Of a stretch of 64,000 nt of DNA, positions 1-25,072 are shown one piece after another. Under the pieces are notes generated by a model. The model was not told where the DNA came from, did no database searches, and saw only the letters and a list, made by a program, of their open reading frames with translations. Position 1 is the first letter of the stretch, and every line of letters starts with the position of its first letter. Position numbers and translations under genes: made by a program. The stretch is from contig CM028330.1 of assembly GCA_016647705.1 (NCBI GenBank), forward strand, positions 47,396,397 to 47,460,396, given 5' to 3'. The DNA is from Eucommia ulmoides. Taxonomy: Eukaryota; Streptophyta; Magnoliopsida; Garryales; Eucommiaceae.

Positions 1-828
1 TTGAATTAACACCAATAACCAGACATAAAGGTTCATTAGGTGATTATTCGCGTTAATATTAACGCGAACAGGTGCCTTTCCAAAGTTGGTGACTATTCGT
101 GTTAACGTTAACACGAACATGTGCCTTTCCAAAGTTGGTGACGGTTCGTGTTAACGTTAACATGAACATATGTCTTTTCTAAGTTGTATCCATTCAATGG
201 TGACTTTTGGTATTCTATAAATAGGAGACTTGTCATTCATTTTATTTCGTCTCATACATAACATTATCACTTCTTATTACCACAAAAGCACAAAACATTT
301 AGAGTTTTGTGAGAGTTCCAGCACAAGTCTAGTTCGCCGAAATTTTTGGTTTCAAGTGCTTGTACCAAAAATTTGAAGATCGTTGTACCCTGGGAGACAA
401 ACGTTTATTCAACCATTAGCACCAGTGTGGGGGCGTGAATCTACTTTAAGAGCATAGAGTCAAACTCTAGCTTCGATCTACTTTAATTCAAATTCGTTAT
501 TTGAACATCTGGGTAAGTTTTTATAATATTTATGACACTGTTTCTATTACATTAATGTTAACACATTCTGCTACTATTCTTCTATATTTCTGTTACGTTA
601 ACGTTAACACATTTTATCACTGTTATTTTTTACTTTCTGTGACGTTAATGTTAACGTCACATTTCTAATTTCATATACACTTAATTTTCTTCACAGAATT
701 TTCATAATTTATTTTTAATGTCCATTCATGTTTAATTAATATTCACATTAATATTTTTTAATAATTATTAATTTTATTTCATGGTTATTTATTTATTTAT
801 CTTGAATTTTTCAGCATTTCCTCCAACA
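1..828 (+). repeat. Partial 5' LTR of Copia-1
   Basis: Position 1 corresponds to about 18532 in the 3' LTR. A TATA-like 'tctataaatag' lies near 215-225, with a probable transcribed part after it. The LTR ends ...CTCCAACA at 828. This copy is about 140 bp longer than the matching part of the 3' LTR because of an extra 'gttaacgttaac'-rich stretch and an AT-rich stretch at 600-780. No iMet-type primer site follows; 829-972 is AT-rich and runs into the truncated Athila LTR. Confidence 0.8.
47..166. repeat. Three 49-bp tandem units, each with a 22-bp palindrome
   Basis: Units start at 47, 96 and 145, exactly 49 bp apart. Each opens with a 22-bp dyad of the form TTCGYGTTAA..TTAACRCGAA (perfect at 47-68 and 96-117, one mismatch at 145-166), followed by 'ggtgcctttccaaagttggtg' or close variants. 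The 3' LTR at 18583-18650 has only two, more degenerate units. The cluster lies just upstream of the TATA-like box, a position that fits an enhancer, but this is inference. Confidence 0.85.
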
Positions 829-972
829 ATCTTAAAGCAGATTCAACTTTTATTTATTTATCTTGAAATTTTGGCATTTTCTTCAACACTATGTTAACAG
901 TAAGGAGGATGTAAATTTTAAAAAAAAATAACTTGTAAGTGTGAAAAATAATAAATAATAATTAAATAATTA

Positions 973-1732
973 AATCTTTGTACGTAATGTTTATTGTGGA
1001 TATTCATGATCTTCTCTTGATTTAATATTTTATTGGCTAAGAACATGTTAGTTTAATTAAAGATTAATTAGGGATAGATGTAATTGTGTAAATACTCATT
1101 TGGTTTAATGTACGTTTCTTTAACAGTTGTTACTTTTAAATCCAATTGTGTTTATCATTTGATGACGATCTTAGTATGCTTGTTATGGTATTAGGATAGG
1201 ATTTGAGAAACTAGGGTTTGACACTCGGGAGAGATAACCCTGGATTCAGACTAGGGTAAACATATCGTTACGACCTAACGACCAGGGAAGGCGTTAGTTA
1301 GTGTGCAATCGATGACGTTGGATCAAGACTCACACGGCCTAGGATCGTTAAGACATTGAGGGAGACCTCTTCGTCGACACGAAGTCGCGTATTCCCTTGT
1401 CTTACACTCGGAAGAGGTGCCGGAGGAGTTTATGAACCGAGATTTTACCTAAACTTCGTTATTGTTAACTAAACGATATCAAACATGTATTAAGTGAACG
1501 AAATAAATCCCTAATTAATCAACTTAGTTAAAATTAAATTATAGTTTAGTTTAGTTTAATTTTAAATCATGTCTTTAATCGTCAGGATAACATGAGACTA
1601 TGTAAATTGCAGTATTCAATTATTCACATTTTTCTCTATGGGAACGATATTCGATTTTCAAGATCCACTATATTAAAACTTAGACCTCGTATACTTGCAA
1701 GAGTAAGTAGCGGTCTATTTTACGCCCTACCA
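973..1732 (+). repeat. Truncated 5' LTR, Athila-type element
   Basis: It aligns with 12280-13039 of the 3' LTR ('ctttgtac.taatgtttattg', 'cactcgggagag', 'gtcgacacgaagtcgcgtattccc', 'acctcgtatacttg'). About 700 bp at its 5' end, including the LTR start TGATAGGTGT, are missing. It ends ...GCCCTACCA at 1732, directly before the primer site. Confidence 0.8.
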
Positions 1733-1738
1733 AGTTTT

Positions 1739-1756
1739 TGGCGCCATTACCAGGGA
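1739..1756 (+). promoter_or_regulatory. Primer binding site, tRNA-Asp type (degenerate)
   Basis: TGGCGCCATTACCAGGGA follows the 5' LTR after a short 'agtttt' spacer. It matches the complement of the tRNA-Asp 3' end (TGGCGCCGTTGCCGGGGA) with three transitions, consistent with mutational ageing. This primer is typical of Athila-like plant elements. Confidence 0.8.
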
Positions 1757-3234
1757 TTAGTGTAAATTTTAAGTTGATATTGCGACTAAGTGGTCGATTG
1801 TTAATCCTGACATTTATTTTGTTTTGTTTTTAATTTTAATTTTTGTTTTATTGTGTTAGTGTGATTAAGCCGTACGAGAAACGATGAAAAAGATTGAAAT
1901 TTTTAATTCTCAATCCCGAGATCGAGCTTATATTGAAAATGATAAGGACTGAGAGGAGAAGCCAACTTAAAGCTATGATCTTGATCCAACTGAGCATTTA
2001 AGACCAAATTCCTTATCTATTTTGGTGAAAAATACTTAGTAACACGAAAGTCCAGCTGGGGACGGTAAAGCAAGCGCAAAAACAAATTTGAAATGAAACT
2101 TAGGGTATCAAATTACCCAATTTTTGTTACTATTTATTTGATTATTTATTCTTTTTGGAAGGTGGCATGGCTTCGGAACGTGTTCGAAAGTGAATTTAGG
2201 AATGTAGACGCTTGGGGAAGTGTTTCACGTTTAAACATGTTGAACAAGAGAAGTAGAAATATACGGGGTGGAGCCGTATTTTGAAAATTTGAGAAAAACA
2301 TGAAAGTAGGAGCTGCAGGCCCACCGCCTAGGCGGTAAAAATACAGGTTGTGTGTTTTTTCAACAAAGCGGCCCACTGCCTAAGCGATGAACCCATCGCC
2401 TAGGCAGTCAAAATCCAAAATGCAACAAATTTTCAAAACACGCTCCATCGCCTAGGCGGAGAAACCACCGCCTAGGCGAAAATAGTGCAGTTAGCTGAGT
2501 TTTTACACTGGCGTAAATTTGCCTAGGCGGAGAAACCACCGCCTAGGTGAATAAACGTCAGAAAGGTTTGTTTTTAAAAAAAAGGCTCCACCGCCTAGGC
2601 GATGGACCTTCTTCAGTTAAAAAGAACCCGCTCGTTCAAAAATTGAAAATCGCAAAGCTTCTTCTCAAAAACCTCCACCTTCTCTCTAAAATCTCACTTC
2701 CAAACCGTTCCAATACTCAAAAATCATCCTTCCATTACCAAAAGTAGTCATTCCCATCACGAATCAACCACCAAGAATCGGATCTCCACCCCTATTTCCG
2801 AAAATTTAGGGTTTTTGCGTGAACGGTGCGATTTCTCCATTCTCTTTCGATTGGACCATAAATTCTCAATAAGTAAGTTTCTTTTACTTTACATTTAGTC
2901 TAATTGTTGAAATTATTGGTTGGTTTGCATGATTATGTTAAAAAATCATTGAATTTTGAAGTTTTGCCCAAAATCCATTTACCCTATTTTCGCGATTTCA
3001 AAGTTCTATGGGTTTTTGGTTTGATTCTTGGTGATGAGCATGTTTAATTGGATTGTTTAAGTATTTGAACTAAGATAGGATGTCACATTTGTGAAATTTG
3101 GTTGAAAAATTCAAATGGGTGTTTGTTTTGAGATGTATGTGTTCTTGACAAAGTGATTAGGGAGGTTTATGTTTTTCAATTTTTCATATATGATGAGATT
3201 GTATTGGTTTTTTTGTGATTTTGATTATTAGGAA
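1757..3234 (+). other. Leader of the Athila-type element
   Basis: Non-coding stretch between the primer site and the gag-like ORF. It contains a cluster of 'cgcctaggcg' palindromes (2331-2612), annotated separately, and an AT-rich stretch (2870-3230). No gene is supported; the short ORFs here have no recognisable sequence. Confidence 0.5.
2331..2612. repeat. CGCCTAGGCG palindrome cluster 1 (leader)
   Basis: About eight copies or near copies of CCGCCTAGGCGG in roughly 280 bp, typically set as 'ccaccgcctaggcgg', with spacers of variable length. The module 'gcctaggcggagaaaccacc' also occurs in the LTR at 11888. Related clusters lie at 6855-7135, 10570-10850, 11770-11965, 14145-14350 and 23773-23862. 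Confidence 0.85.
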
Positions 3235-4119
3235 ATGCCGAAGAGGGTAGCAAAGAAGAGGGAGAGAGGAGAAGGGTTGAGCTCGCAACTCGGGGTGCCG
3301 ATTGACGTTGACTACGATGCCAACCGTTTTGCGTCAAAACAAGCGGAGTATTTCAAAGAACACGAAGCTTTTCGAGCATGCATACGCCAACGTGGTTTTG
3401 GTCCGATAGAAGATCTCCCAGCGAAATTTCAACAAGAAATCTGAAGCCACCAATGGGAGCAATTCTGTAAATCGCCACCCTCGGGCGAGGTAGCCTTGGT
3501 CAAAGAATTTTACGCTAATACTACGGAGGCCATAGACGACCAAGCAAGAATTCAAAATCGGTCAATCATTTGCAGCCCTGATTTTATCAATCATCTCTTT
3601 GGAATTTCGGCGCCTAGGTCCCCTGAAAGCAAAGAACCTACTTTACATAGGGTCATTAAAAAGATCACATCTGGCGAAGTCAAGTGGAAACACCAGGGAC
3701 CGAATATCGCTACCTTCTCAGTGAAATACCTAAAGCCAATTCCAAAAATCTGGCACCATTTCATTTATGGAAACCTCCTACCAACGTCACACCTTTCAAA
3801 CGTCTCAAAGCACAGGGCCTTTTTTATCTAAAAAATTCAAATTGGGCAAGCAATCAACATTGGATTTTTGATCTACTCATCAATCATACATGCTGCAAAA
3901 ACGACAAAGGATGGGCTCCATTTTCCGTCACTTTTGACCCACATTTTCCGACTAGCTGGAGTGACGGTATCCGAAGGAAGCATGTGCCACCCTATCATCC
4001 CACTAGATCTATCAAAGATAAACCGTTTGTGGAAGACTGGGGTGCAAGAGGCAGTCGAGCCCAAGCCTGAGGAAGGGGAAGAGCCAACAGACGAAACTGC
4101 GGGACCTTCTGGAGCCTGA
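3235..4119 (+). pseudogene. Decayed gag-like ORF of the Athila-type element (plant transposon protein domain family)
   Basis: One frame runs for about 295 codons from ATG at 3235 to TGA at 4117-4119, broken only by in-frame TGA at 3442-3444 and TAA at 3829-3831. The start is basic (MPKRVAKKRERGEG). Recognisable blocks follow: VKEFYANTTEA, IWHHFIYGNLLPTSH, and HFPSLLTHIFRLAGV, ending in an acidic tail rich in Glu and Pro. This pattern is familiar from plant proteins annotated as 'putative plant transposon protein domain', which occur widely in Athila-like retrotransposons; I recognise it by pattern, not by a search. The protein probably belonged to the element and is now non-functional. No protease, RT or integrase follows it. 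Confidence 0.7.
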
Positions 4120-5629
4120 GATGAAAACTCCCAGGAGAGGGTATATAACAAGATTCAAATTGTCCTCCAAACTAAATACGAAATTTTCTCTTTCCTAGAC
4201 CAATATTCGAGGTAGCAAGATTGAGTCCAACGGAAGATTTGGGAAGGCCTTGGCCTTGAGATAGGCGATTACCCTCCGATGCCATCCGTGCCGCCACATT
4301 TGCTACAGAAACCACACTCTCCTTTCTAACGAGATGATGGTGATGACTCCTCGTCAGGTAAACAGTAGGGAATAAGTCTTATTCCCTAGGTATGTGTTTA
4401 ACCCATTTTGTATGCATTAATGTTATATGTTTATTGGGTTCGCTGACAGTGGAACACGTCTTTTGTTCAAGCATGTATTGGGATGGAATGGATGATTAGT
4501 TTAGTGTATGTTCATCCATTTTGATTTTTTGTAGAAAAGAATGAACTATTATTATTTTTTGAACAAAATGCAAAAAAAAAATTGATGTACAAATTTATGT
4601 TTATGTATGTATTTTATTATTTTAATGAATGTTTTAGTTTTTAAATTTTTAGTTTAGTGTAGTTTAATTTTTGTTTTTGCATGAGTAGTGTTAGATTAAT
4701 TTACATATGTTAGTATTAGATTTAATTTAGAATTGTGTATGTATAAAGTAGTATTTGCATGTTTAGATGTTAAGTTCATTTGGGTCAAGTCCCGATAATG
4801 AGAATTATCCCCTAATTACATATTGAGGTCGGGGGTAATACCTTCCTTGTGTGTTTTGTGTGTTTAACATGTCGATTGGGTAAAACTTATCTCGATCCTA
4901 AAATCGCACGACATTTGAACTCAATGTATAATTATTTGAACGATTAGACGCTGATTATTTAATATTAAGCTCATGATAGAAAATGAGGAAACTAGAACTT
5001 GATTTGGGGGAAACTTGAGGCGAACTCCTAGGTAAGGTAATTCCGGAGACGTAATTTAGGTCGTCATTTTTTCGCTTGAACCGTTGTAGCTAACCTGGAA
5101 ATTTTCATTCTTTCTTTCCCCTATCGAAGCCAATAACATAATCAATTCTGAAAATGTTCAAATACTCTTTTCATTTAAATTTTTCCTAAACCAATGTCGC
5201 TAAGCCTAATTTTCAAAATTGAGAAAAAGCAAGTGAGCGGTCGGGTTTCTGATAAATTTTTATTGATTTAGTATTAGTGTATTCACTTATCACGTTTTTA
5301 TTCCTTTTTGCACGCTCCTAAAATAAGTTTGGGGGGGGTGTTTCTATAATTTCTTTCTTTTACATATTCCTAAAATTTTATAAATTTGAATACGTTTGGG
5401 GGTGTGTTTCTCTAACTTCTTTTTGCACTCTCCTAAAACTATAATAATTCGAATTAATTTAGGAATATGTTGATATATAAAAAAAAAAAAAAAAATGAGA
5501 TTATAGTTTTCATTTTCTTTTCTTTCGACAAGTGAATACAAAGATCTTCATTTCTTATTCAGAGTTGTATTCTAAGAATGTGGGGGGGTCATGAGAGAGG
5601 ATAGCGACAAGCAATTTTACCTCGAGTAT
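4120..5629 (+). other. Non-coding internal region of the Athila-type element
   Basis: No ORF is supported. The stretch around 4780-5060 ('tgaggtcgggggtaataccttcc', 'gaacttgatttggggg', 'ggtaattccggagacgtaatttaggtc') is homologous, on the opposite strand, to 8330-8640 of the nested element, which ties the two elements to one lineage. The nested element is inserted at 5629/5630. Confidence 0.6.
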
Positions 5630-7358
5630 TGGTAGCGCGAGAAAAACACGCCGCTACTTACACTCGCAAGTATACGAGGTCTAAGTTTTAGTATAGTGTG
5701 ATCATTAATATCGGGTTATCGTATCCACAAGGATTGTTGTCGTTACTAGCGAATACCGCGTTTGTCGTGACCTAAGTTTATCTAGGTGAAAAACAAATGT
5801 ATTTAATTAATTAAACTAATACTAATATATCCTAAATTAACTACACTATTATGTTAATATGTTTTAGGGTGAAGAATTGTATAGGGATTAACGTGTTTAC
5901 AAATACGTGTTCGATTTCGATTTACTCGCGTTTACGTTGTTCGACCTATTTGACAACCTCGGTACGTAAACTCCACCGCCACCTCTTCCGAGTGTAAGAT
6001 GGGAGAATACATGACTTCGAGTCAATGGAGAAGTCTCCCTCAATGTCTTAATGACCCTAGGTCACATGAGTCTCGCTCAGCGTCATTGATTGCACACAAT
6101 TCAACTCCCTCCCAGGTTATTGGATCGTTGCGTTGTATTTACCTGATCGACAATCTTTGTTCTAAAACTCTCTCGCCACCTCTTCCGAGTGTAAGACGAG
6201 GAATATAACGCAACTTCGAGCCAATGAAGAGGTCCCCCTCAACGTCTTTATGACCCTAGGTAGGGTGTGTCTTGCCCAATGTCATCGATTGTCCACGATT
6301 CAAACCTCGACCGGGTTATAGAATCGTGGCATTTGTTTACCCTAATCTGAATCCGAGGTTTTGTCAAAACCCTGTATTCTCTATTTATCAATCAAAGCAT
6401 AATAAACAAACAATACGATAAATACAATCAAAATACGAAGAACAATCACAAACGAAACACCGAAATCACCCGAACAACGTATTTATAAATTTAGTATTAA
6501 TCCCTACTACAATCCATATTTAACTCGGGGCCATAGCCGCATGTACAAGAAAATAACGAGCTAAACATGCACACGTACTCCTAAGATAAAGAAATAAGGA
6601 AAAACAATCGAAGAACTTAGCCTCGTCTGAAGATAAACCACTAAGAACGCTCAACGATCGATTCGTCGTTTTCTCCACTTCGGGATGTGAGCTCCACACC
6701 TGAAATCCCTAACCGTAGGCTTAAGTATAGCCTAAAGGGCTCAAAAATGCAAGAGAGAAGAGAGAGATCCGGCCAAAGGGGGAGGAGAGGGGATATTTAT
6801 AGCAAAAATATCCTAAAAATATCTAAAAATATCTTAAGGCTGTGCAGGGCAAATCTGCCTAGGCGGTGGAATTTTCGCCTAGGCGGAGTTAGGTCGGTTA
6901 AGTCTGATCGCCTGGGCGGTGAAGTAGGCGGTGGATTGGAGAACATTCTGTTGAAATTCCGCCTAAGCGAAGAAAACTTCGCCTGGGCGAGCGACTGTCA
7001 GTAGCCCTTCTTCGTCCTCTGCTAGATTTCCGCCTAAGCGGTAGAATTTCCGCTCAGGCGATCGTCCGTCAGTAACATTTTACTCTTCTCTGCATCTTCA
7101 CCTCTTAAGCAGTGGCCTGGACGCTTAAGTGGTGGGCCTGTTTCATCTTTTAGCCTCCGAGCTTGTTTATCCACCGTAACTTCGAACCGCTTTGGTTCGA
7201 TCTCATCATTTTTACTCCAGTTTCCTATCTTTTTGACCCACACACCTGAGTTATACAAAAAGTATAAATACTAATTAAAACATAATAAAAATAACAATAA
7301 ACATATTCGAAAATTAACCAATTCGGATTGGAAATAGATAGGTTTTTCACACCTATCA
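5630..7358 (-). repeat. 3' LTR of the nested Athila-type element
   Basis: About 1.73 kb, pairing with 9358-11076. It contains a roughly 197-bp internal duplication: 'gccacctcttccgagtgtaag' occurs at 5978 and again at 6175, each followed by related sequence. CGCCTAGGCG-type palindromes lie at 6855-7135. On its upstream side (right) is the polypurine tract (complement of 7359-7371). Confidence 0.88.
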
Positions 7359-9357
7359 ATACCCCCAAACTCAAAACTTGGCTAGTCCTCGAGCCAAACA
7401 CACACACTAAAATGAAAAAATACAAAAAAAATAACAAACTGAATTAAATAACAAACAACCTAAAAACAATCTAAACATAATAACATGCGAGTTTTGACTT
7501 CTTCTAACGGCCTATTTATTTTTGCCCTCAACAACCGCCAATAATAACGAGTTCAGGCGGTAATACACAGCATGTAATGTTCTAGAATTTTGATATGCAA
7601 TAATGGTGAACGCTATTCTAGATCCTTTAAATGTGTTAGTGCGAGACTCAATAATATAACTATACAACGATCAGATTAGATTATCCACCAATGAAATTCA
7701 TGAGTTAAGGATTACCATAAGCTTGATTGGGGTCCACTCTCCACTAATGTAGGTTTAGTAGTTCATGAAGATCATTAGGGCTTGGTTCGGTTAAGGTTAA
7801 TTTGGCTAAGGGTAATTTCGAAATAGAAAAATAGGTTAACGTTGTTAACTTAACGTTACCCAAGGCTCAACGCTTGGCACATTCACTCTCGAATCCCCAT
7901 AGGAAGATTGGAAACAGTCCCGAACATGCATTTAAGATCAACGTACTCACTTGTCAAAAGAAACGGAAATAAAAACGGTATTTACATTTGATTCTTTTCT
8001 TTTTTTTTTCTATTTTTTTTCTCTTTTCAACGAACGCACCCCCAAACTTATTTGATTGTTACAATTGAAGGGGTGTGTGAAATACAAATGAAAAACGACA
8101 AGTGAGTACTCAAATACTGAATCAATTAAAAGTTCGCCCTAAACCCAACCGCTCACATCAAGAAGCCTTTGCAACGGCTAACTTGATTTACTCAAATGTG
8201 CCTTTAAATTCAACGATTAAGGACTGGAAGGAATTCAATTGGTCGTGGTATTGTTAGTTTATGTGTTCTGAATTGAATTTGCATTTAGATTTCGACAAGG
8301 TGACGAGGGATAATCATTTTACAAAGTAGGCTTCAAAGGCTCAAGCGATAAAGATAATGCCTAAATCACGTCTCCTGAACTACCTCGCCTAGAATTTCGC
8401 CTCAAGCTTCCCCTCAATCAAGTTCTAGAATCCTTAATGTGTCATGAATTTGGTTAATCGATAATCGTCCTCAAATCAATTGAATAACTATACATTGAGT
8501 CTATGTGCTCGTGCAATTTAGGATCTACAATAATTTTTTTCAAAAAGCATAGTCAAGCACACAGAACCATACATGCATGGGTATTACCCTCGACTTCAAA
8601 AACAACCAGGGGTAATTTTCATCATCGGGTGACGAACCAGATGAATGCAAAACTCAACATATAAACAACAACACAAAAACATAAACACATTCTAACCTAA
8701 ACACACATGCAATACGGAAAAACAATAACACATAAACTAACATACTACTACTACACATCACCGCCAAACTCAAAGTGGACAGTGTCCTCAGCGATCCCAA
8801 TCATCATTCTTCAACATATGAAATTTAAAGCATGCTGACGAAGGGATGTTTTAAACACTTACCTGGGAGGCGAGAGAATCTCGCCTCCGATTCAAGTCGG
8901 ATGTGTCGGATTTAACTTATTTTGACCTTGGGTTGCCTCCCAAGAAGTGCGTGGTTTAATGTCCTCGGCCCGACATTCAGAATGCCCTCAAGATTGGCGA
9001 GGTTTTGCTTTGGATGGCTCAATCTCTCAATAAAACGACTCACCGGCTTATGTGCTTGGCCAAGCAACATAAAACGGCTTGGAATCCCGTCGAAAGGAAT
9101 ACATCAATACCCGTCGATCTAACATCGGCACGTACCCTGCATAAGAAATAAAAACAAAACTACAAACAAAAATTATATACAAAGAAATGCCTAAAGTAAA
9201 ATTAGGTCATTTACACACAATATCAATAATGAACGATATCGCCAATCCTGGCAATACGAAACACTTGCTTCTCCTATCTAAAACTCAAGCCCAGAGTCAT
9301 TACCGCATTTCTCCGACAATAACATCAAAACAATCCCCGGCAACAGCGCCAAAAACT
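7359..9357 (-). other. Non-coding internal region of the nested element, with PPT and PBS
   Basis: The polypurine tract is 7359-7371 (minus strand 'gtttgggggta'). The primer site is 9334-9351 (minus strand TGGCGCTGTTGCCGGGGA, one mismatch to the tRNA-Asp 3' end). Between them are 'gggaggcaacccaagg' near 8930, a common phrase in plant Ty3 elements, and stretches shared with the host element's internal region (7680-7740, 8330-8640). No gag or pol is visible, so it must have depended on an autonomous relative. Confidence 0.75.
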
Positions 9358-11076
9358 TGGTAGCGCGGGAAAAACACGCCGCTACTTACACTCGCAAGTA
9401 TACGAGGTCTAAATTTTAGTATAGTGTGATCGTTAAGATCGGGCTATCGTATTCACAGGGATTGTTGTCGTTACTATCGAATACCGCGTTTGTCATGACC
9501 TAAGTTTATCTAGGCGAAAAATAAATGTATTTAATTAATTAAACTAATACTAATATATCCTAAATTAACTACACTATTATGTTAATATGTTTTAGGGTGA
9601 AGAATTGTATAGGGATTAACGTGTTTACAAATACGTGTTCAATTTCGATTTACTCGCGTTTACGTTGTTCGACCTATTTGACAACCTCGGTACGTAAACT
9701 CTACCGCCACCTCTTCCGAGTATAAGATAGGAGAATACATAACTTAGAGTCAATGGAGAAGTCCTCCTCAACGTCTTAACGACCCTAGGTCACGTGAGTC
9801 TCGCCCAGCGTCATTGATTGCACACAATCCAACTCCCTCCCAGGTTATTGGATCGTCGCGTTGTATTTACCCTATCAACAATCTCCGTTCTAAAACTCCC
9901 TTGCCACCTCTTCCGAGTGTAAGACGTGGAATATAATGCGACTTCGAGCCAAGGAATAGGTCCCCCTCAACGTCTTTACGACCCTAGGTAGCGTGTGTCT
10001 TGCCCAACGTCATCGATTGTCCACGATTCAAACCCCGACCGGGTTATCGAATCGTGGCGTTTGTTTACCCTAATCTGAATCCGGGGTTTTACCAAAACCC
10101 TGTATTCTCCATTTATCAATCCAAGTATAATAAACAAACAATACGATAAATATAATCAAACTACAAAGAACAATCACAAATGAAACACCGAAATCACCCA
10201 AACAACGTATTTATAAATTTAGTGTTAATCCCCACTACAATCCATATTTAACTCAGGGTCATAGCCGTATGTACAAGAAAATAACGAGCTAAACATGCTC
10301 ACATACTCCTAAGATAAAGAAATAAGGAAAAACAATTGAATAACTTAGCCTCGTCCGAAGATAAATCGCTAAGAACGCTCAACGATCGATTCGTCGTCTT
10401 CTCCACTTCGGGATGTGAGCTCCACACCTGAAATCCCTAACCATAGACTTAAGTATAGCCTAAAGGGCTCAAAAATGCAAGAGAGATGAGAGAGATCCGG
10501 CCAAAGAGGGAGGAGAGGAGATATTTATAGCAAAAATATCCTAAAAATATCTAAAGGTTGTACAGGGCAAATCCGCCTAGGCAGTGGAATTTTCACCTAG
10601 GCGGAGTTAGGTCGGTTAAGTCTGATTGCCTGGGCGGTGAAGTAGGCGGTGGATTGGAGAACATTCTGTTGAAATTCCGCCTAAGCGAAGAAAACTTCGC
10701 CTAGGCGAGCGACTATCAGTAGCCCTTCTTCGTCCTCTACTGGATTTCCACTTAAGCAGTAGAATTTCCGCTCAGGCGGTCATCCATCAGTAACATTTTG
10801 CTCTTCTCTGCATCTTCATCGCTTAAGCGGTGGTCTGGAGGCTTAAGCGGTGGGCCTGTTTCATCTTTTAGCCTCCGAGCTTGTTTATCCAATGTAACTT
10901 CGAACCGCTTTGGTTCGATCTCATCATTTTAGCTCCAGTTTCCTATCTTTTTGACCCACACACTTGAGTTATACAGAAAGTATAAATACTAATTAAAATA
11001 TAATAAAAATAACTATAAACATATTCGAAAATTAACCAATTCGGATTGGAAATAGATAGGTTTTCCACACCTATCA
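9358..11076 (-). repeat. 5' LTR of the nested Athila-type element
   Basis: About 1.72 kb. It ends TGGTAGCGCG (plus strand) next to the primer site and CACACCTATCA at 11076. It has the same 197-bp internal duplication and the same palindrome cluster (10570-10850) as its partner. Confidence 0.88.
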
Positions 11077-11579
11077 GGTATCGTTCAATTCAAACGATTA
11101 TCTATTTTCAATTCCAATGATACCCGTGGTCGTTCTCCAAAGTCAAACCAAGTCCTATTGATCTCTATGAATATCCGAGCCTACATTAGTGGATAGTATA
11201 CTCCAATCAAGCGTATGGTTTTCCTGAATCCTTCAACGGTTTAAGTTATGAGCTTAACAATTGAATAATCGAATCCGGTATTTGAATAGTTACACATTTG
11301 AGTTGTCATACACACACTTCAAATGGATGTAGAATGATTTTTATTTATATTGATCGTTGAAATTCTAGACCACTTGGTGTGGGTTACTTCCCGAACTTAA
11401 TCAGATTTAGGGATGTTGAGGGAGGAACAAATTGGTCCTTTCGATTTAACTTTGTATTTACATGCATGTACTTCTTTTGTGTTTAAATTTTTCATTTTTA
11501 GTTTGTTAGTTCATTAGTTAGTTTAGCTTAGTGTTAGTGTTTTACCCAAGGACTAACAAAATTCTAAGTTTGGGGGTAT
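11077..11579 (+). other. 3' internal end of the Athila-type element, with polypurine tract
   Basis: The host element resumes after the nested insertion. 'cctacattagtgga' and 'ccaatcaagc' match the complement of 7690-7740 in the nested relative. The polypurine tract 'aagtttgggggta' ends directly before the LTR start at 11580. No gene. Confidence 0.65.
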
Positions 11580-13039
11580 TGATAGGTGTAAAATACCTAT
11601 CTATTTCGAAACCGAATTTATTAGTTTTTAAGCGTATTAGTTATATTTAATTGTGTTTTAGTTTGTTTTAGTGTAAAACAGGTGAAGCGACGTTAACGGG
11701 CGATAAACAAGCGAAAACGGTGGAGAAACGATGAACAAAACGTGAAGAACTGGGTTTTGGTGCATGAAGACCACCGCCTAGGCGGAAAAGAGGCAGAATG
11801 TTGGAGTACTGAAGTGCTGAACCACCGCCTAGGCAAGAAAACCACCGCCTAGGCGAGAAAACGTCAAAATGTTGTGCCAACAGCCATTGCCTAGGCGGAG
11901 AAACCACCGCCTAGGCGAAAATCTGACAGAAGCTTAACCGACTTAAACCACCGCTTAGGCAATGACACTCTGTGCAGAAATATATGTTTCCAGATATTTT
12001 GAAGATATCTTCCCAAAACCTTCTTTTAACCCATTTCTCCCCAATTGTTAAAGAGGCTAGAGGAGCCCGGTTGATAATTGGAGAGCTCTTTCCACCTTAG
12101 TTAGGTTTAGATAATTTAGGAAGTAGATTAGATTAGTTCTAAAGAGTGTTCTTGGCCAATTCTTGAAGGGCTAAAAGAGGAAGTTCATCAATGGAGAAGA
12201 GGAAGCTCGGGAAGATTGTTCTTTGGCGAAAGTGGACTACTCCACTTTGAGATTTGATTTTTCTTCCCTTGTTTCCATCTTTGTACTTAATGTTTATTGT
12301 TGATATTGATGATATCCTCTTGATTTAATATTGTATTGACTAAGAACATATTAGTTTAATTAAAGATTAGTTAGGGATAGATGTAGTTGTGTAAATACTC
12401 GTTTGGTTTAATGTACATTTCTTTAACGGTTGTTCCTTTTAAATCCAATTATGTTTATCATTTGATGACGATCTTAGTACGCTTGTTATGGTATTAGGAT
12501 TGGATTTGAGAAACTAGGGTTTGACACTCGGGAGAGGTAACCCTGGATTCGGACTAGAGTAAATACATCATTACGACCTAACGACCCGGAAGGGCGTTAG
12601 TTAGTGTGCAATCGATGACGTTGGGTCAAGACTCACTCGGCCTAGAGTTGTTAAGACATTGAGGGGGACCTCTTTGTCGACACGAAGTCGCGTATTCCCT
12701 CGTCTTACACTCGGAAGAAATGGCGGAGGAGTTTACGAACCGAGATTGTCGGATACCTAAACTCCGTTATTGTCGACTAAACGAAATCAAACATGTATTA
12801 AGTGAACAAAATCAATCTCTAATTAATCAACTTAGTTAATATTAACCCACTAATTGTAGTTTAGCTTAGTTTAAATATAAATCATGTCTTTAATCGTCAG
12901 GATAACATGAGACTACGTAAATTACGGTATACAATTATTCACACTTTTCTTTGTGGGAACGATATCCGATCTTCAAGATCCACTATATTAAAACTTGTAC
13001 CTCGTATACTTATGAGAGTAAGTAGTGGTGTATTTTACG
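11580..13039 (+). repeat. 3' LTR of the Athila-type element (left arm of a palindrome)
   Basis: It starts TGATAGGTGTAAAATACC directly after a polypurine tract and is homologous along its 3' half to 973-1732. Instead of ending ...CCCTACCA like other copies, it stops at 'tattttacg' and passes into tRNA sequence. A palindrome cluster is present at 11770-11965. It pairs as an inverted repeat with 13111-14549. Confidence 0.88.
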
Positions 13040-13103
13040 ATAGTGGTGAGAATTCCCGCCTGTCATGCGAGTGACCCGGGTTCGATCCCCGGCAACGACG
13101 CCA
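13040..13103 (+). tRNA. tRNA-Asp(GTC) copy lacking its first 11 nt; retroelement primer relic
   Basis: These 64 nt match plant tRNA-Asp from about nucleotide 12 to the CCA end: D-arm part, anticodon stem-loop with GTC (cccgcctgtcatgcgag), T-arm with 'gggttcgatcccc', and the 3' acceptor strand plus CCA. The CCA is not gene-encoded in plant nuclear tRNA genes, so its presence points to a copy made from a mature tRNA, as expected if reverse transcription copied the primer. The 5' acceptor strand is missing, so it cannot fold as a functional tRNA. It sits between two inverted LTRs. Confidence 0.85.
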
Positions 13104-13110
13104 AAAAACT

Positions 13111-14549
13111 TGGTAGGGAATAAACTACACCGCTACTTACTCTCGCAAGTATACGAGGTATAAATTTTAATATAGTGGATCTTGAAGATCGGATATCGTT
13201 CCCACAGAGAAAAGTGTGAATAATTGAATACCGCAATTTACATAGTCTCATGTTATCCTGACGATTAAAGACATGATTTAAAATTAAACTAAGTTAAACT
13301 ACAATTAGTAGGTTAATATTAACTAAGTTTATTAATTAGGGATTGATTTCGTTCACTTAAAACATGTTTGATTTTGTTTAGTTAACAATAATGGAGTTTA
13401 GGTATCCGACAATCTCGGTTCGTAAACTCCTCCGCCACTTCCTCCGAGTGTAAGACGAGGGAATACGCGACTTCGTGTCGACAAAGAGGTCCCCCTCAAT
13501 GTCTTAACAACTCTCATGAGTCTTGACCCAACGTCATCGATTGCACACTAACTAACGCCCTCCAGGGTTACCTCTCCTGAGTGTCAAACCCTAGTTTCTC
13601 AAATCCAATACTAATACCATAACAAGCGTACTAAGATCTTCATCAAATGATAAACACAATCGGATTTAAAAGCAACAACCGTTAAAGAAACGTACATTAA
13701 ACCAAACGAGTATTTACACAACTACATCTATCCCTAACTAATTTTTAATTAAAATAACATGTTCTTAAACAATACAATATTAAATCAAGAGGATATCATC
13801 AATACCAACAATAAATATTAAGTACAAAGATGGAAACAAGGGAAGAAAAATCAAGTCTCAAAGTGGAGTAGTCCACTTTTGCCAAAGAACATTCCTCCCG
13901 AGCTTCTTCTTCTCCATTGATGAACTTCCTCTTTTAGCCCTTCAAGAATTAGCCAAGAACACTCTTTAGAACTAATCTAATCTACTTCTTAAATTATCTA
14001 AACCTAACTAAGGTGGAAGGAGCTCTCCAATTATCAACCAGGCTCCTCTAGCCTCTTTAACAATTGGGGGAGAAAGGGGTTAAAAAGAAGGTTTTGGGAA
14101 AATATCTTCAAAATATCTGAAAATAGATATTTCTGGGCAGAGTGTCACCGCCTAGGCAGTGGTTCACCGCTTAGGTGGTGGTTTAAGTCGGTTAAGCTTC
14201 TGTTGGATCTTCACCTAGGCGGTGGTTTCTCTGCCTAGGTGGTGGCTGCTGGCACAACATTCTGACGTTTTCTCGCCTAGGCGGTGGTTCAGCACTTCAG
14301 TACTCCAACATTCTGCCTCTTTTCTGCCTAGGCGGTGGAACTTCCGCCTAAGCGGTGGTCTTCATGCACCGAAACCCAGTTCTTCATGTTTTGTTCACTG
14401 TTTCTCCACTGTTTTCACTTGTTTATCGCCTGTTAAAGTCCCTTCACCTATTTTACACTAAAATAAACTAAAATGAAATTAAATATAACTAATACGCTTT
14501 AAAACTAACAAATTCGGTTTCGAAATAAATAGATATTTTACACCTATCA
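13111..14549 (-). repeat. Inverted LTR of the Athila-type element (right arm of the palindrome)
   Basis: On the minus strand it starts TGATAGGTGTAAAATATC and ends ...TTATTCCCTACCA, followed by the 7-nt spacer AGTTTTT and a tRNA-Asp primer site that runs on into nearly the whole tRNA. It matches 11580-13039 in inverted orientation along its length, with scattered substitutions. A palindrome cluster lies at 14145-14350. No internal element DNA accompanies it; Copia-1 sequence resumes at 14550. Confidence 0.88.
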
Positions 14550-14881
14550 AGTAGGTACAGTAATGATAATAGTCTAAGTCATAGGAGATGTCACTTTAAA
14601 AGTCTCAATTGGCGCAGTGTTTTCACTTTCTATCACAGAGTAGCATGTCTACAATTTTAACAAATGTATAATAAATACTTAGAAAATTTTACAACCAAAG
14701 CACAAATTAAGGAATCAAATGTTTCACTAACCAGAAACTGGAAGTTAACGTTCACATAAGAATCAGAATTCAATTCAGAACATTAATGTTCACACAACAA
14801 TTTACAAAACAGATTTAAAATGTGAACATTTACTTATTTATCTTAAAATTTCAGAATAAAATTTGAATCTTTACGTAAGTT
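14550..14881 (+). other. Copia-1 internal DNA upstream of the pol remnant
   Basis: AT-rich non-coding sequence right of the palindrome. It contains words reminiscent of the LTR ('gttaacgttcacataag', 'atttatcttaaaatttcag'). No gag or protease sequence can be recognised. Confidence 0.4.
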
Positions 14882-17414
14882 ATTAATTTAGATTTATTGC
14901 CAAAACGCAAAATTGGTTCAAACCATAAATGTGAGACTTGTGTGCAGTCTAAGTTGACTCGAACTTCTTTTCAATCCATTGAAATAAGTACTAAACCTCT
15001 AGAGTTAATTCACACTGATATTTGTGATTTAAAATTTGTACAAACTAGAGGTGGTAAAAAGTATTTTATTACTTTTATTGATGATTGCACAAGATACTGT
15101 TATGTTTATCTTCTAAGGAGTAAAGATGAAGCCTTGGAAAATTTTATGTAATATAAGAACGAAGTTGAGAATCAACTTAACAAAAAGATTAAAGTTCTTC
15201 GAAGTGATAGAGGTGGTGAATATGAATCACCGTTTGTGAAATTTTGTACTCAACACGGAATAATTCATCAAACAATAGCATCTTATTCACATCAGCTAAA
15301 TGGAGTAGCTGAGAGGAAGAATATAACTTTAAAAGAAATGATGAATGCTATGTTGATAAGTTCTGGACTAACCCAGAACATGTAGGGGGAAGCATTACTT
15401 ACCGCCAATTACGTTCTTAATAAGTTGCCACATAAGAAATTGGATAAAACTCCATATGAAATGTGGAAAGGTAAGACTCCTACTTATAAATTCTTAAAAG
15501 TGTGGGGGTGTCTTGGTAAGGTGGCGGTTCCTATTCCTAAAAGGACTAAAATAGGACCTAAAACAATTGATTGCATATTCATTGGGTATGCCCAAAACAG
15601 TAGTACTTATCGATTTTCAGTTCACAAGTCTAAGATTGAAAATGTACATGAGAATACAATAATGGAATCCATAAATGCATTCTTTTATGAGGATATATTT
15701 CCTTATAAGACTTCTCGAGAGTCTAGTTTTTTAAAAAGAACGCTTGATACTACGATAGGTGAAGTCCAAAATGAAATATATTTGGAAGATAATGAACCTA
15801 GATATAGTAAGAAGGCTAAAACAACAAAGTCATTTGGTCCTGACGTTCTTACCTATATGGAAGAAGGTGATCCTAAGAGTTTTAAGGAGGCGATGTCAAC
15901 TCCTAAAGCACCATTTTGGAAAGAAGCTGTAAACAATGAAATAGAATCTATCTTGCAAAACCATACATGGGAACTAGTGGATCTTTCATCCGGTTCCAAA
16001 CCTCTTGGGTGTAAATGGATCTTCAAAAAGAAGATAAAAGCAGATGGATCAATTGATAAATATAAAGCTAGACTTGTAGCTAAAGGTTACAAGTAAAGAA
16101 AAGGTGTTGATTACTTTGACACGTACTCATCGGTTACTATGATAACATCCATTAAAATGTTGATAGCCATAGCAGCTATACATAATCTTGAAATACATCA
16201 AATAGATGTTAAGACAGCTTTCTTAAATGGTGAACTAGATGAGGAAATCTACATGGAACAACCAGAAGGGTTTGTTGTTTCTGTCAAAGAGAACAAAGTT
16301 TGTAGACTTGTTAAGTCTTTATATAAACTTAAACAAGTACCAAAACAGTGGCATGAGAAATTTGACAAAGTTATGATGTCAAATGGATTTAAAATCAATG
16401 AATGTGACAAATGTGTCTACATTAAACATAATAAATCTGAATATGTCATTGTATGCCTTTATGTAGATGACATGTTAATTATTGGTAGCAATAATGACAT
16501 CATTAAGTCTACCAAAATGATGTTAACCAGTAAGTTTGATATGAAAGATTTAGGTGTTGCTGATGTAATTCTAGGAATTAAAATTTTCTAGATCTTCTAA
16601 AGGACTAGTATTATCGCAATCTCATTATATTGAGAAGATACTTGAGAAATTCAACAAGTATAATACTAGTCTAGCTAAAACACCTATTGATATGAATTGT
16701 CATTTAACTAAGAATACTGGTGAAAGTATCTCTCAGTTAGAGTATGCTAATATAATAGGCAGTCTAATGTACTTAATGAACTATACTAGACCTGATATTG
16801 CCTATACAGTGAGCAGACTGAGCAGATATACTAGCAACCCAAGACACGGACACTGGAATGCAATAGTTAGGGCACTTAGATATTTAAGGTATACTCTAAA
16901 CTATGGATTGCATTACACCAAATATCCAGTTGTACTTGAAGGTTACAATGATGCAAATTGGATAATGGATTGTAAAGATACTAAATTCACAAGTGGATAC
17001 ATCTTTACACTTGGAAGAGGAGCTGTCTCATGGAAATCCTCCAAACAGACGTGTATTGCAAGGTCTACAATGGAATCTGAGTTTATTGCTTTAGACAAAG
17101 CAAGTGAAAAAACTGAATGGCTTCGTCAATTTTTAGAAGATATTCCAATGTGGACGAAACCTGTGTCAGCTATTTGTATACATTATGATAGCCAATCTGC
17201 AATTGGTAGGGCACAAAGTAGTATGTATAACGGTAAGTCTCGACACATACGACGTAGACATAATACCGTTAGATAGTTACTCTCAAATGGAGTTATCACA
17301 ATTGACTACGTGAAGTCAAAGGATAATATTGCGAATCCACTAACTAAAGGGTTAACTAGAGAGAGAGTATATTATTCATCAAGAGGAATGGGTTTAAAGC
17401 CTATAACTAAATAG
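14882..17414 (+). pseudogene. Copia-1 pol remnant: integrase, reverse transcriptase, RNase H
   Basis: Integrase: the end of the zinc-binding region (CETCVQSK), then IHTDICD, FIDDCTRYCYVYLL, SDRGGEY and VAERKN, carrying the DDE core acidic residues. Reverse transcriptase: CKWIFKKK, IDVKTAFLNGEL, YMEQPEGF and the intact catalytic YVDDM. RNase [24 protein letters not shown] and SKDNIANPLTKGL. Breaks are in-frame stops at 15149-15151, 15383-15385, 16094-16096 and 17274-17276 and a frameshift near 16586. The order integrase-RT-RNase H defines Copia. Gag and protease are absent, so it cannot function. Confidence 0.93.
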
Positions 17415-17995
17415 TCACCTTAATGGAAACCCAATCTAGCTGACTAGAGATCCCAAGATCTAGGTTCAAAGGGACAACCTAATTATGTGTAGACTAAGTA
17501 ATCACTGGAAGATTTTAAGTTTTATACTCATTCCAATGGTGAACCAGTGATAAATATAAGTATTAAGGATACGTTTTGCTTTTAATGATTCCTATAGCTT
17601 GAAAAATTCAAGTAGGGTATACGGGATACTCTTGATAGGTTAATCATCTAGATGAGTGAAGAACAAGGCCGGTTCTATGAGAATGAGAAGGCTAAATTCT
17701 CTAAAGCACCTATTGAATCACCAGGATGTTCAAGGCTAAAATGAACACAACCAGAAAATTGACTGTGTCAGGAAGTATCTATGTGAATTCTATTGTCTTA
17801 GTTTAAACAAACGACTGAATAGTTCAAGACATCGCGTTCACTGATTAACCAAGTAAATCCAATAGTCTTTTACTAGAGAAGGTTCAAGGCCAAAAGCTAT
17901 CTATCTCGATGCAGTTACTTTCTATTTGAACTCTCTATAGTGTGTCAACATTACATATGCATGTATATTCAATCAATCTCATTCATGTGGGGGAT
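17415..17995 (+). other. Copia-1 3' untranslated internal region with polypurine tract
   Basis: Non-coding stretch between the end of RNase H and the 3' LTR. It ends with the polypurine tract 'gtggggga' (17988-17995). Confidence 0.7.
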
Positions 17996-19217
17996 TGTTA
18001 GAATTTTTGCTATTTTAATTGATTAATTAAAGTGAGACCTATTAATTAAATTAATTGAGTTATTATTCCGTTGCATTCCTCGTTGTTTGAGAATCAACGT
18101 AGTATATTTATATGCCAAAAATAATTAAATTTTGAATGAGATTTTAATTCTCAAATAAACCCATTTGAGATTGATTGAAGATATAAATAAATGTATTATC
18201 CCACATTACTTAGAAGGGGATGAGTTATCACACATTGCTTGAAAAGAGAAAATTTGAGTTGTAAGGGTAGTTATCCCACATTGGTTGTGGAGAAGAAACT
18301 CAAGTTTGTATCAACTTATAAATTGAGGACAAATGCAAGCTACTAACAATCAAACCTTCAAACTTGAATTGGGTTGGGTTGAGTTTGGGTTGGGACAAAT
18401 CCATCCATATTTAGATTTGGTTTGGACCGGATCCAAGTTGGGTCGGATCGGGTCGGATCTTGACCCACCAGATTAGTTTAAAATTTAATTAGTGGCAGTT
18501 AAGTAATTAATTAATTGCTCAATCGTTAATTTTGAATTAGCACCAATGAACAGACATGAAGGTTCATTAGGTGACTGTTCGCATTAATGTTAATGTTAAC
18601 AGGTGCCTTTACAAAGTTGGTGACGGTTCGCGTTAACGTTAACGTGAGCAGATGTCTTTCCAAAGTTGCATCCATTCAATGGTGGCTTTTGGTCTTCTAT
18701 AAATAGGAAACTTGTCATTCATTTTATTTCGTCTCATGCACAACATTATCATTTCATATCACTACAAAAGCACAGAACATTTAGAATTTTGTGAGAGTTC
18801 AAGTACAAGTCTAGTTTGCCAAAAAAATTTGTTTCAAGTACTTGTACCAAAAACTTGAAGATCGTTGTACCCTGGGAGACAAACGTCTATTTAACCATTA
18901 GCACCAGTGTGGGGGCGTGAATCTTCTTTAAGGATATAGAGTCAAACTCTAGTCTCGATCTACTTTAATTCAAATTCGTCATTTGAACATCCAGGTAAGT
19001 TTTTATAAAATTTTAAAACACTATTTTTGTTATATTAACGTTAACACATTCTGCTATTGTTCTTTTTGTTTCTATTACGTTAATGTTAACACATTCTGGT
19101 ACTATTCTTTTTGTTTCTGTTTCGTTAACGTTAACACATTCTTGTGTTGTTCTTCTTTAGTTTTATTTCATGGTTATTTATTTATTTATCTTGAAATTTT
19201 CGATATTTCCTCCAACA
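17996..19217 (+). repeat. 3' LTR of Copia-1
   Basis: It starts TGTTAGAATTTTTGC directly after the polypurine tract and ends TTCCTCCAACA, about 1.22 kb. It matches 1-828 from 18532 onward. A TATA-like 'tctataaatagg' lies near 18698. Two palindromic units remain at 18583-18650. Confidence 0.88.
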
Positions 19218-20080
19218 CATAGATAGTCTTAATTCAATATACATATTATTGATATTGAATTCAATATGCATCCATACATGAACCAAATACAACCAATTTT
19301 AATATTGTTTTGAAGTTGATTCAAGTATGACGTTGAATTCAACATGAATTCATATATGAACCAAATATAGTTGATTTTGATATTGTTTTGAACTTCATGG
19401 TTTCGCGATCAGTAATCAGTGTTCATTTCAGACTCACATTCTTCCAATAAGTTTTTATGACTTGTTTTAACTATAAGAACTCGGATATCATTAAATTGTT
19501 CATATCTTTCCGATCATAATTGAGCAGTTAAAGCAGGCTGTCTGTTTTCTCATAATTGAGCAGTTAAAGCAGGCTGTCTATTTTTTCATATATTGAATTC
19601 CACACATGCATAAAAACCAATTAAAATTTACATATGAATAAAAATCAAAGATCTTTACACCGTTTCAAACAAATTTTGATGTCATTATTTCAATAATATA
19701 CAAATATTTCATTTCATCAGCTGTTTTCGGCGATGTTGAATTCAACACATAAAAATAAAACAAAAAATAATCGATTTTGGTATCATTTTGAAGCTCACAT
19801 CCCACAATCATTATATGTATTCATTCCATACCCACGATGCGTCAATAATATTAATGCGTGATGGCATTAAATGGGTAATTGTTCCTATTTTTCAAAAATA
19901 TAAACTTACAGTTGCACTATTCTCTTATTTTACAGTATCAAACTTATTCCCCGAGAATAATAAATTTGTTCAATTGTTTTGCGAAGGATTAAAATGTAAC
20001 ATGGAAAAATATTTTTTTTCCCCTTTTATTTTGGTCAAGTCGCCCTTATTTTTATTTATGAAAAAAAATTTATCTAAGAG
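19218..20080. other. AT-rich intergenic DNA with degenerate short repeats
   Basis: No gene. 'catatatgaaccaaatatag' and 'catacatgaaccaaatacaa' mark a diverged tandem repeat of about 75 bp (19270-19400) with EcoRI-like 'ttgaattcaa' dyads. A 37-bp near-perfect tandem duplication ('cataattgagcagttaaagc') lies at 19515-19585. Confidence 0.5.
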
Positions 20081-23411: not shown

Positions 23412-25072
23412 TGATAGGTGTAAATTACCTATCTATTTCCAATCCGAACGTTGTTAGTTTTTGAGTATGTTTAGTACGTTTTAATATGGTTTTATGTGTT
23501 TTTGTCTAAATCAGGTGTTTGAGGTGAAAAATTATGTAAATGGATCAAAAACGATCAAATCGGATCAAGAACGGTGGAAAAATTGTGAAAATGTGCAAAG
23601 TCAGTAGAGGTGTTGTAACTTAGAGGCTATTTTTTACTATGATGCAATCCAATCTTGGACAAAACTCAAAATGTGGAAGTTGTATATCTTTCTCTTAGAT
23701 TTCTATTTGTTTTTGAATCACCTCAATCGGAGTTCGGACGAAGAATTTACAGCGAAAATACGAAAGTATGTCACCACCTAGGCGGAAATTCCACCGCCTA
23801 GGCGGTAAAAGTACAGAATCAAGCATAAACTCACTGATGTTGCACCGCCTAGGCAGTCACCTTTGCACAAGATTAGATGTTATTTTAGATATTTTAGGAT
23901 ATTTTGATCCCATTTTCTCCTCCTCTCCTCTCCATTCAGCCAAGAGACATCCATAGACTTTAGGATGATAGATTGAGAGGTTTTGGGAGTGCTCAGTCAA
24001 ATCCTAAGGAGAAGATCACGTTGTAACGAAGGAGGAGCGATCTTGAAACGTTTTTAGCGATAAATCTTCAAACTATACTAAGTTTCTCTCATTCTTTTCT
24101 TTATTTCTTAACTTAGGATTGTTGTTTGAGCATGTTTAGCTTAGTTTTAATTGTATAATCGGCTATGGCCATAAGCTAAACGGGTTTTTATCTAGGAATT
24201 AATATATTTATGAAAATGTTGTTTTATTGAGTTTGTGTTTGGTTAGCGGTTGTTCTTCGTTACTTTGATTGTGTTTATCATAGTGTTTGTTTATTATGCT
24301 TAGAATGATATATGGAGAATACGGAGTTTGACGAACCCCGGATTCGAGTTAGGGTAAACAAACGCCACGATCCAATAACCCGGTCCAGGTTTGGATTATA
24401 GACAATCAATGACGTTGAGGGAAAACTTACGTGACCTAGGGTCATTAAGACGTGGAGGGGAACTTCTTCGTTGACTCGAAGTCATGTATTCCCCCGTCTT
24501 ACACTCGGGAAAGGTGACGGTGGAGTTTTAGAACTGAGATTGTTAATAGGGTAAACACAACACGACGATCCAATAACCCGGCCGGGAGTTGAATTATGTG
24601 CAATCAATGACATTGGGGCGAGACTCACATGACCTAGGGTCGTTAATACATTGAAGGGGACTTCTTCGTTGACACGAAGTCGTGTTATATCCCTCGTCTT
24701 ATACTTAGGAGAGGTGGCGAGGGAGTTTACGAACTGAGATTATTGGATAAGTCGAACGTCGTTAATGTAAACTAAAACGAGACCAAACAAGTTTTTGCAA
24801 ACAAAAGTTAATCCCTAGACAATACTTTCCCTAAACATCTCATAGTAATATTAGTATAGTTAATTTAATTAGATTAATTAACTTAGTATTAGTATAATTA
24901 ATTTTATTCAATTTATTTTTGCCTAGATAAAATTAGGTCATGATAAACGCGGTACTCAATAATAGTCAAAACCAATCCCTGTGGACACGATAACCCTAAC
25001 TCTCCTGATCTATACTAAAACTTGACCTCGTATACTTGTGAGTGTAAGTAGCGGCGTATTCACGCACTACCA
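23412..25072 (+). repeat. Solo Athila-type LTR inside Copia-2
   Basis: It starts TGATAGGTGTAAATTACC and ends ...GCGTATTCACGCACTACCA, 1661 bp. Flanks gccca (23407-23411) and gccta (25073-25077) form a 5-bp target duplication with one mismatch. No internal retroelement sequence is left, so an intact insertion was probably reduced by LTR-LTR recombination. It has the same duplicated 'acactcgg...gaggtggcg' section as the LTRs of the nested element (24330-24740) and three CGCCTAGGCG-type palindromes at 23773-23862. Confidence 0.88.

Follow-up and report, generated by a model that had tools for sequence, protein, structure and literature searches.

In tRNA-primed reverse transcription, m1A58 blocks pairing, so that plus-strand strong-stop synthesis ends after 18 nt of the tRNA (PMC13191261). 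The same paper reports that unmodified tRNA is copied fully in vitro and that TRMT6-mutant cells extend past A58; full-length tRNA copies are not among the products that its account of the process describes as able to proceed. Particles of Ty3 are reported to accumulate dead-end plus-strand strong-stop DNAs, the first of which carries a 12-nt tRNA copy (PMC5371799), and the two-LTR circles of two carrot copia elements, with their small indels, have been ascribed to non-homologous end joining (PMC9324142). Reverse-transcribed tRNA at the U5 end of an LTR has been described in retroviruses: in circular MLV DNA whose LTRs are separated by tRNA-Gly (Colicelli and Goff, 1986, as cited in PMC12220202), and in an HIV provirus next to which lies a copy of tRNA-Gly (Gurgo and Franchini, 2025; PMC12220202), for which the authors propose a self-primed alternative as well.

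In the window, the 64,000-nt stretch of Eucommia ulmoides DNA analyzed here, two LTRs of one family face each other, U5 to U5, across a copy of tRNA-Asp. The order along the locus is LTR L (11580-13039, plus strand), a 64-nt tRNA-Asp(GTC) copy (13040-13103, plus), the 7-nt linker AGTTTTT (13104-13110, minus) and LTR R (13111-14549, minus). An earlier note on this DNA had proposed an inverted same-family LTR pair around tRNA-Asp, and the pair is real: seven inverted-repeat pairs jointly cover 11579-13037 and 13121-14550 and form the two arms. Of the 1390 gap-free columns in the alignment of L with R, 94 (6.8%) hold substitutions, scattered along the LTR; the arms also differ by several indels, mostly unit losses in CCACCGCCTAGGCGG-type repeats, with about 44 nt lost in R. 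Repeats of this type, with the palindrome GCCTAGGC, lie at 11757-11970 in L, at 14157-14360 in R and at 2310-2600 in the internal region of the element to the left.

The tRNA stretch is identical at 59 of 64 positions to nucleotides 12-75 of tRNA-Asp(GTC), CCA included, the reference being a provisional plant sequence. The first 24 nt of this reference are the same as a wild-soybean small RNA printed in PMC3519564, which lists it as a miRNA candidate, and the first 18 nt are the same as the tRNA-Asp forward primer in PMC6521008; the reverse primer of the latter has no obvious match to the 3' part of the reference, and a literature search found the body and 3' part, as letters, in no paper. The match scores 51.5, compared with 16.5 for the next best in the window and 11-12 in five shuffled windows. 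ARAGORN called no tRNA gene in the window, and Rfam gave no tRNA-family match in 12000-14200 with E up to 1, its three sub-threshold matches there being an 18-nt tmRNA match inside the tRNA copy and two to lncRNA. A nuclear tRNA gene would have a complete acceptor stem and no encoded CCA; here nucleotides 1-11 are absent and CCA is present. Three of the five changes from the reference (linear positions 38, 42 and 70) are C-to-T or G-to-A, as methylation of plant DNA would lead one to expect.

On the minus strand, the last letters of R are CCCTACCA, after which come the linker and then the primer site TGGCGTCGTTGCCGGGGA (13086-13103), which matches tRNA-Asp at 17 of 18 positions. From there the tRNA complement runs on in register, past nucleotide 58 of the provisional reference, with 42 of 46 positions matching; placed without gaps anywhere else in the window, on either strand, the same 46 nt reach 24 matches at the next best places. 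Two further tRNA-Asp primer sites were found in the window. That of the left element (1739-1756, plus strand) matches at 15/18 and then at 9/46, that of a related element, N (9334-9351), which served as a control, at 17/18 and then at 13/46, and in both the match ends after about 19 nt. BLAST of the tRNA stretch against the window found only the stretch itself and the primer site of N, and the primer-site pattern had 0 matches in viral_contigs. Against the provisional reference, two further observations of the earlier note thus hold good: that the 64 nt are tRNA-Asp with its CCA, reaching up to nucleotide 12, and that on the R side the primer site runs straight on into the tRNA.

L belongs to a larger element, as its 3' LTR: a polypurine tract, AGTTTGGGGGTAT (11566-11579, plus strand), directly abuts its start and has the same motif as the tract before the 3' LTR of N. 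A remnant of the 5' LTR, here called A (974-1732, plus strand), was recognized from BLAST to L and R, from alignments and from its sequence; it has lost about the first 697 nt and ends ...TTTTACGCCCTACCA. L ends TTTTACG and, compared with A at 1725-1732, lacks the terminal 8 nt, CCCTACCA. The left element thus has the parts of a tRNA-Asp-primed LTR retrotransposon, namely the CCCTACCA end of A, a linker, a decayed primer-binding site and a polypurine tract. Between A and L, outside N, an ORF scan found two ORFs of at least 110 aa: one, a fragment at 3445-3831 (plus strand), matches Pfam PF20167, "putative plant transposon protein," and the other has no Pfam match. Soybean Diaspora and Calypso, of the Athila lineage, are described with 18-nt tRNA-Asp primer sites 5 bp after the LTR (PMC1142308). 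The label "Athila-type" in the earlier note is therefore plausible as to primer type, which agrees with Diaspora and Calypso and lends support short of proof, but no Athila polyprotein was seen in the two ORFs scanned.

The surroundings are a nest of retrotransposons. N, between A and L (5630-11076, minus strand), was probably inserted into the left element; its LTRs, of about 1.7 kb, are 93% identical, its internal sequence is only about 2 kb, and it is flanked by the duplication ATACC/ATACT. Further to the right is a solo LTR of a related family, here called C (23412-25072, plus strand), with the duplication GCCCA/GCCTA. The composite itself is hosted by a copia-type element (1-19218, plus strand), whose LTR-like repeats at 1-655 and 18532-19135 are 86-87% identical, with similarity continuing to about 828 and 19218. 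Pfam places integrase and reverse transcriptase of its pol part at 14873-16588 (plus strand; start approximate), and for an ORF that reaches 17276 it gives no match. The integrase is recognizable only from about 14873; no gag and protease part was seen in 1-19218, and a gag_pre-integrase match is weak (E 0.0049, below the curated cut-off). The origin of 14550-14870 is uncertain.

R begins exactly at LTR nucleotide 1, without a polypurine tract or internal DNA, and is not flanked by a target-site duplication (TTACG vs. AGTAG), whereas N and solo LTR C, the two ordinary insertions that could be checked, each keep duplications agreeing at 4 of 5 positions. To the right of 14549, matches to the rest of the window do not exceed 29 nt; AGTAG, the letters to the right of R, which a duplication enclosing the entire composite would repeat on the far side of A, was not found at 800-1000, the outer end of A being lost. 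The joint between L and the tRNA copy has no filler and no evident microhomology, 8 nt being lost from L and 11 nt of the tRNA being absent. All of this, including the boundaries and the register of the primer site, can be read directly from the DNA. R accordingly consists of exactly the parts of a plus-strand strong-stop DNA (LTR, linker and tRNA copy), because it starts at LTR nucleotide 1 and has neither polypurine tract nor target-site duplication.

Several simpler identities for R were considered and rejected. It is not a simple solo LTR, since a 5-bp target-site duplication is missing and a linker and primer site are present, nor an inverted duplicate of L, since it has the U5 end, linker and primer site, of which the last two do not belong to a 3' LTR. 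It is not the 3' LTR of an element extending to the right, since it has no polypurine tract and beyond 14549 there are only matches of at most 29 nt to other parts of the window. Nor was it inserted into the end of L, the missing 8 nt of which do not recur at 14401-15000. By BLAST, the tRNA sequence does not lie within the LTR, as it would in a Helenus-type element.

The best explanation, to which we would assign a probability of roughly 0.7, is that the composite is a fossil of failed reverse transcription: m1A58 was read through on a whole tRNA-Asp, and the product was end-joined to the 3' end of a sibling. The element involved would have been an Athila-like LTR retrotransposon of the tRNA-Asp-primed kind, and its primer a whole tRNA-Asp. 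Starting from the polypurine tract, plus-strand synthesis would have gone through U3-R-U5 and the linker, passed m1A58 (the usual stop, after 18 nt of tRNA) and continued to about nucleotide 12. For the over-extended product, normal second strand transfer would have been impossible, and this dead-end DNA, now R with its linker and tRNA copy, would have been end-joined, no microhomology being evident, to a sibling cDNA at the U5 end of its 3' LTR (L), trimmed by 8 nt in the process, to give a tail-to-tail LTR-tRNA-LTR palindrome inside the copia element. That plus-strand synthesis went astray through the primer tRNA, and that its product was then joined to another LTR end, is what the earlier note had suggested, and it fits best; further backing comes from the strong-stop limits of R, from the identity of L as a 3' LTR short of 8 nt, and from the two other primer sites, which do not run on. 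What we infer is that m1A58 was read through, that end joining was the route, and that it preceded the integration of L; with the outer end of A gone, the joint may indeed be older than integration, or R may have been captured by an L already in place.

How readily could reverse transcription continue once past A58? In Arabidopsis, m1A58 is reported to be ubiquitous in nuclear tRNAs, and reads of tRNA-Asp(GTC) are almost exclusively full length; these come from a laboratory reverse transcriptase, not that of a retrotransposon, and truncations near the 3' end were not investigated by the authors (PMC11658184). Because the reads are almost all full length despite m1A58, tRNA-Asp probably poses little further block past this position. 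The carrot two-LTR circles show small indels, so that a blunt joint lacking 8 nt on one side and 11 on the other would be ordinary for end joining. There are also points on the other side. The start of R at LTR nucleotide 1 would also fit an integrase-joined 5' LTR, which counts against the read-through explanation, and the five changes in 64 nt of tRNA, counted against the provisional reference, are slightly more than the roughly two that half the L-R divergence would predict. We know of no blocking modification that would explain a stop at nucleotide 12, and the evidence base for read-through is one locus.

The relative ages of the LTRs bear on whether R could be a sibling. In the 701 columns common to L, R and A, there are 42 differences between L and R, 61 between L and A and 62 between R and A. 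Private changes number 39 in A, 19 in L and 20 in R (A vs. R, p 0.018; A vs. L, p 0.012), with three sites at which all three differ. At sites polarized with outgroups, L and R share a state against A at six, and each of the other pairings does so at one (one-sided p about 0.02); the fork in the tree of L, R and A is not settled. By these counts R is at least as close to L as is A, the presumed partner of L, and would not be an older independent copy: an independent insertion should be at least as far from L as A, and R is closer. This agrees with R being a sibling copy, made in the same replication event or in a contemporary one. Part of the distance of A may reflect faster change in A. Had three copies simply parted at the same time, the polarized sites would not be expected to divide six to one to one; this could be accounted for by gene conversion between the neighbouring arms or by A not being the partner of L.

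Among the alternatives, the one that survives best, though we consider it unlikely, is that the run-on was inherited: R would be the 5' LTR of a member of a subfamily in which the internal region opens with an extended tRNA complement; a later deletion would have removed the internal part, and what was left would have been joined to L. The start at LTR nucleotide 1 is where a 5' LTR would begin, and lentiviruses and spumaviruses are known to have complementarity just beyond the primer site (PMC13191261). Here, however, the match goes on for 46 nt beyond the primer site, taking in the anticodon loop, and halts at L with no internal sequence between them, and none of the two other primer sites in the window (0/2) has anything similar. 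Diaspora and Calypso, too, are described with 18 nt (PMC1142308), and the origin of such a subfamily would itself need an earlier read-through.

Another possibility, which seems quite unlikely, is that a strong-stop DNA or a broken element used its 3' end to copy a nuclear gene for tRNA-Asp, by way of about 15 nt of primer-site homology, before being joined to L. Such an end would be homologous to every tRNA-Asp gene, and the product would look alike even in its CCA, because the CCA would come from the primer site; this route would nevertheless call for an additional jump, driven by homology, and for copying to halt within the tRNA, and no tRNA 5' end or 5' flank is present. The alternative raised in the earlier note, nested insertion beside a resident tRNA gene or tRNA-derived SINE, has been weakened to the point of being very unlikely. 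Retrotransposon insertion beside tRNA genes is on record for compact genomes, but the tRNA here stands in exact primer-site register after a normal LTR and linker, with its CCA and without nucleotides 1-11, R has no target-site duplication, and the locus is inside a copia element in a retrotransposon nest. A fold-back chimera or other assembly or sequencing artefact, of which near-palindromes are a typical shape, is scarcely credible given arms that have diverged by 6.8% plus indels, which would argue against a fold-back read, and an R with a U5 end, linker and primer site absent from L.

If the read-through explanation is correct, the locus would preserve, in a chromosome, an intermediate for which the other evidence comes from enzyme assays, from cell lines and from individual retroviral clones. 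The primer, too, would be identified directly: tRNA-Asp, with everything from nucleotide 12 to the CCA end attached to the DNA. This bears on an open disagreement over whether tRNA fragments, as stated in one review (PMC12786077), or complete tRNAs, as inferred from primer sites in one survey (PMC6317226), prime plant elements. A broader proposal, which we put forward tentatively and regard as possible rather than probable, is that dead-end strong-stop DNA with a near-complete tRNA copy can reach plant chromosomes, that tRNA-Asp-primed elements may make it regularly, and that a whole tRNA, rather than a fragment, served as primer here. Regular production might be expected because tRNA-Asp seems to present no further hard stop once m1A58 has been passed. 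If true, this would be a natural source of tRNA-LTR chimeras, and would resemble the old strong-stop model of how tRNA-derived SINEs arose. The signature (LTR, linker, primer site, anti-tRNA) can be searched for in any plant genome, and could help in estimating the failure rate of the m1A58 stop and in telling which tRNAs are affected.

Among the titles and abstracts listed in a literature search, with subscription journals mostly outside its scope, no plant LTR-tRNA-LTR junction is described, and comparison must be with partial likenesses. The complex insertions of grasses attributed to template switching (Sabot and Schulman, 2007; PMC1950507) may resemble the present locus in that two copies are fused in one replication cycle and inserted as one; they differ in having three LTRs, the middle one being shared, and in that no tRNA is reported. 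Helenus TRIMs (PMC10886601) are likewise LTR retroelements that carry tRNA sequence, but as that paper presents them the tRNA-like part is inside the LTRs, where it is proposed to be an RNA polymerase III promoter, and has no primer-site match.

Other likenesses are DNAs that carry a copied tRNA. The dead-end strong-stop DNA of Ty3 (PMC5371799), like R on the read-through explanation, is LTR DNA with a tRNA copy, displaced and unused, although 12 nt of tRNA are reported as copied there and 64 nt here. HIV inserts of tRNA-Asp (63 nt) and tRNA-Glu (65 nt) (Konstantinova, 2006, as cited in PMC12220202) come close in length, the former being a nearly equal stretch of the same tRNA; as related there, they replaced an engineered hairpin in the nef region, and were not at an LTR end as here. 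The HIV provirus of Gurgo and Franchini (PMC12220202) does have its copy, with CCA, at the U5 end, lacking five bases at the 5' side; in that account, unlike here, a non-cognate tRNA is joined to host DNA, in a cell line, with no second LTR at the joint. The MLV circle (PMC12220202) would share the arrangement of a reverse-transcribed tRNA at a U5 end joined to another LTR, with four bases of the tRNA missing at the 5' end as against 11 here. That circle, as summarized in the same source, was unintegrated and used a spurious primer, and the Colicelli-Goff type has its LTRs in direct orientation; in the present locus the LTRs meet inverted, U5 to U5, in chromosomal DNA, the joint is blunt with small losses, the event is old, and the tRNA is the one usual for the family. 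The locus would thus be an inverted, chromosomal, plant, cognate-tRNA form of a known but rarely seen accident, the retroviral precedents of which are single cases.
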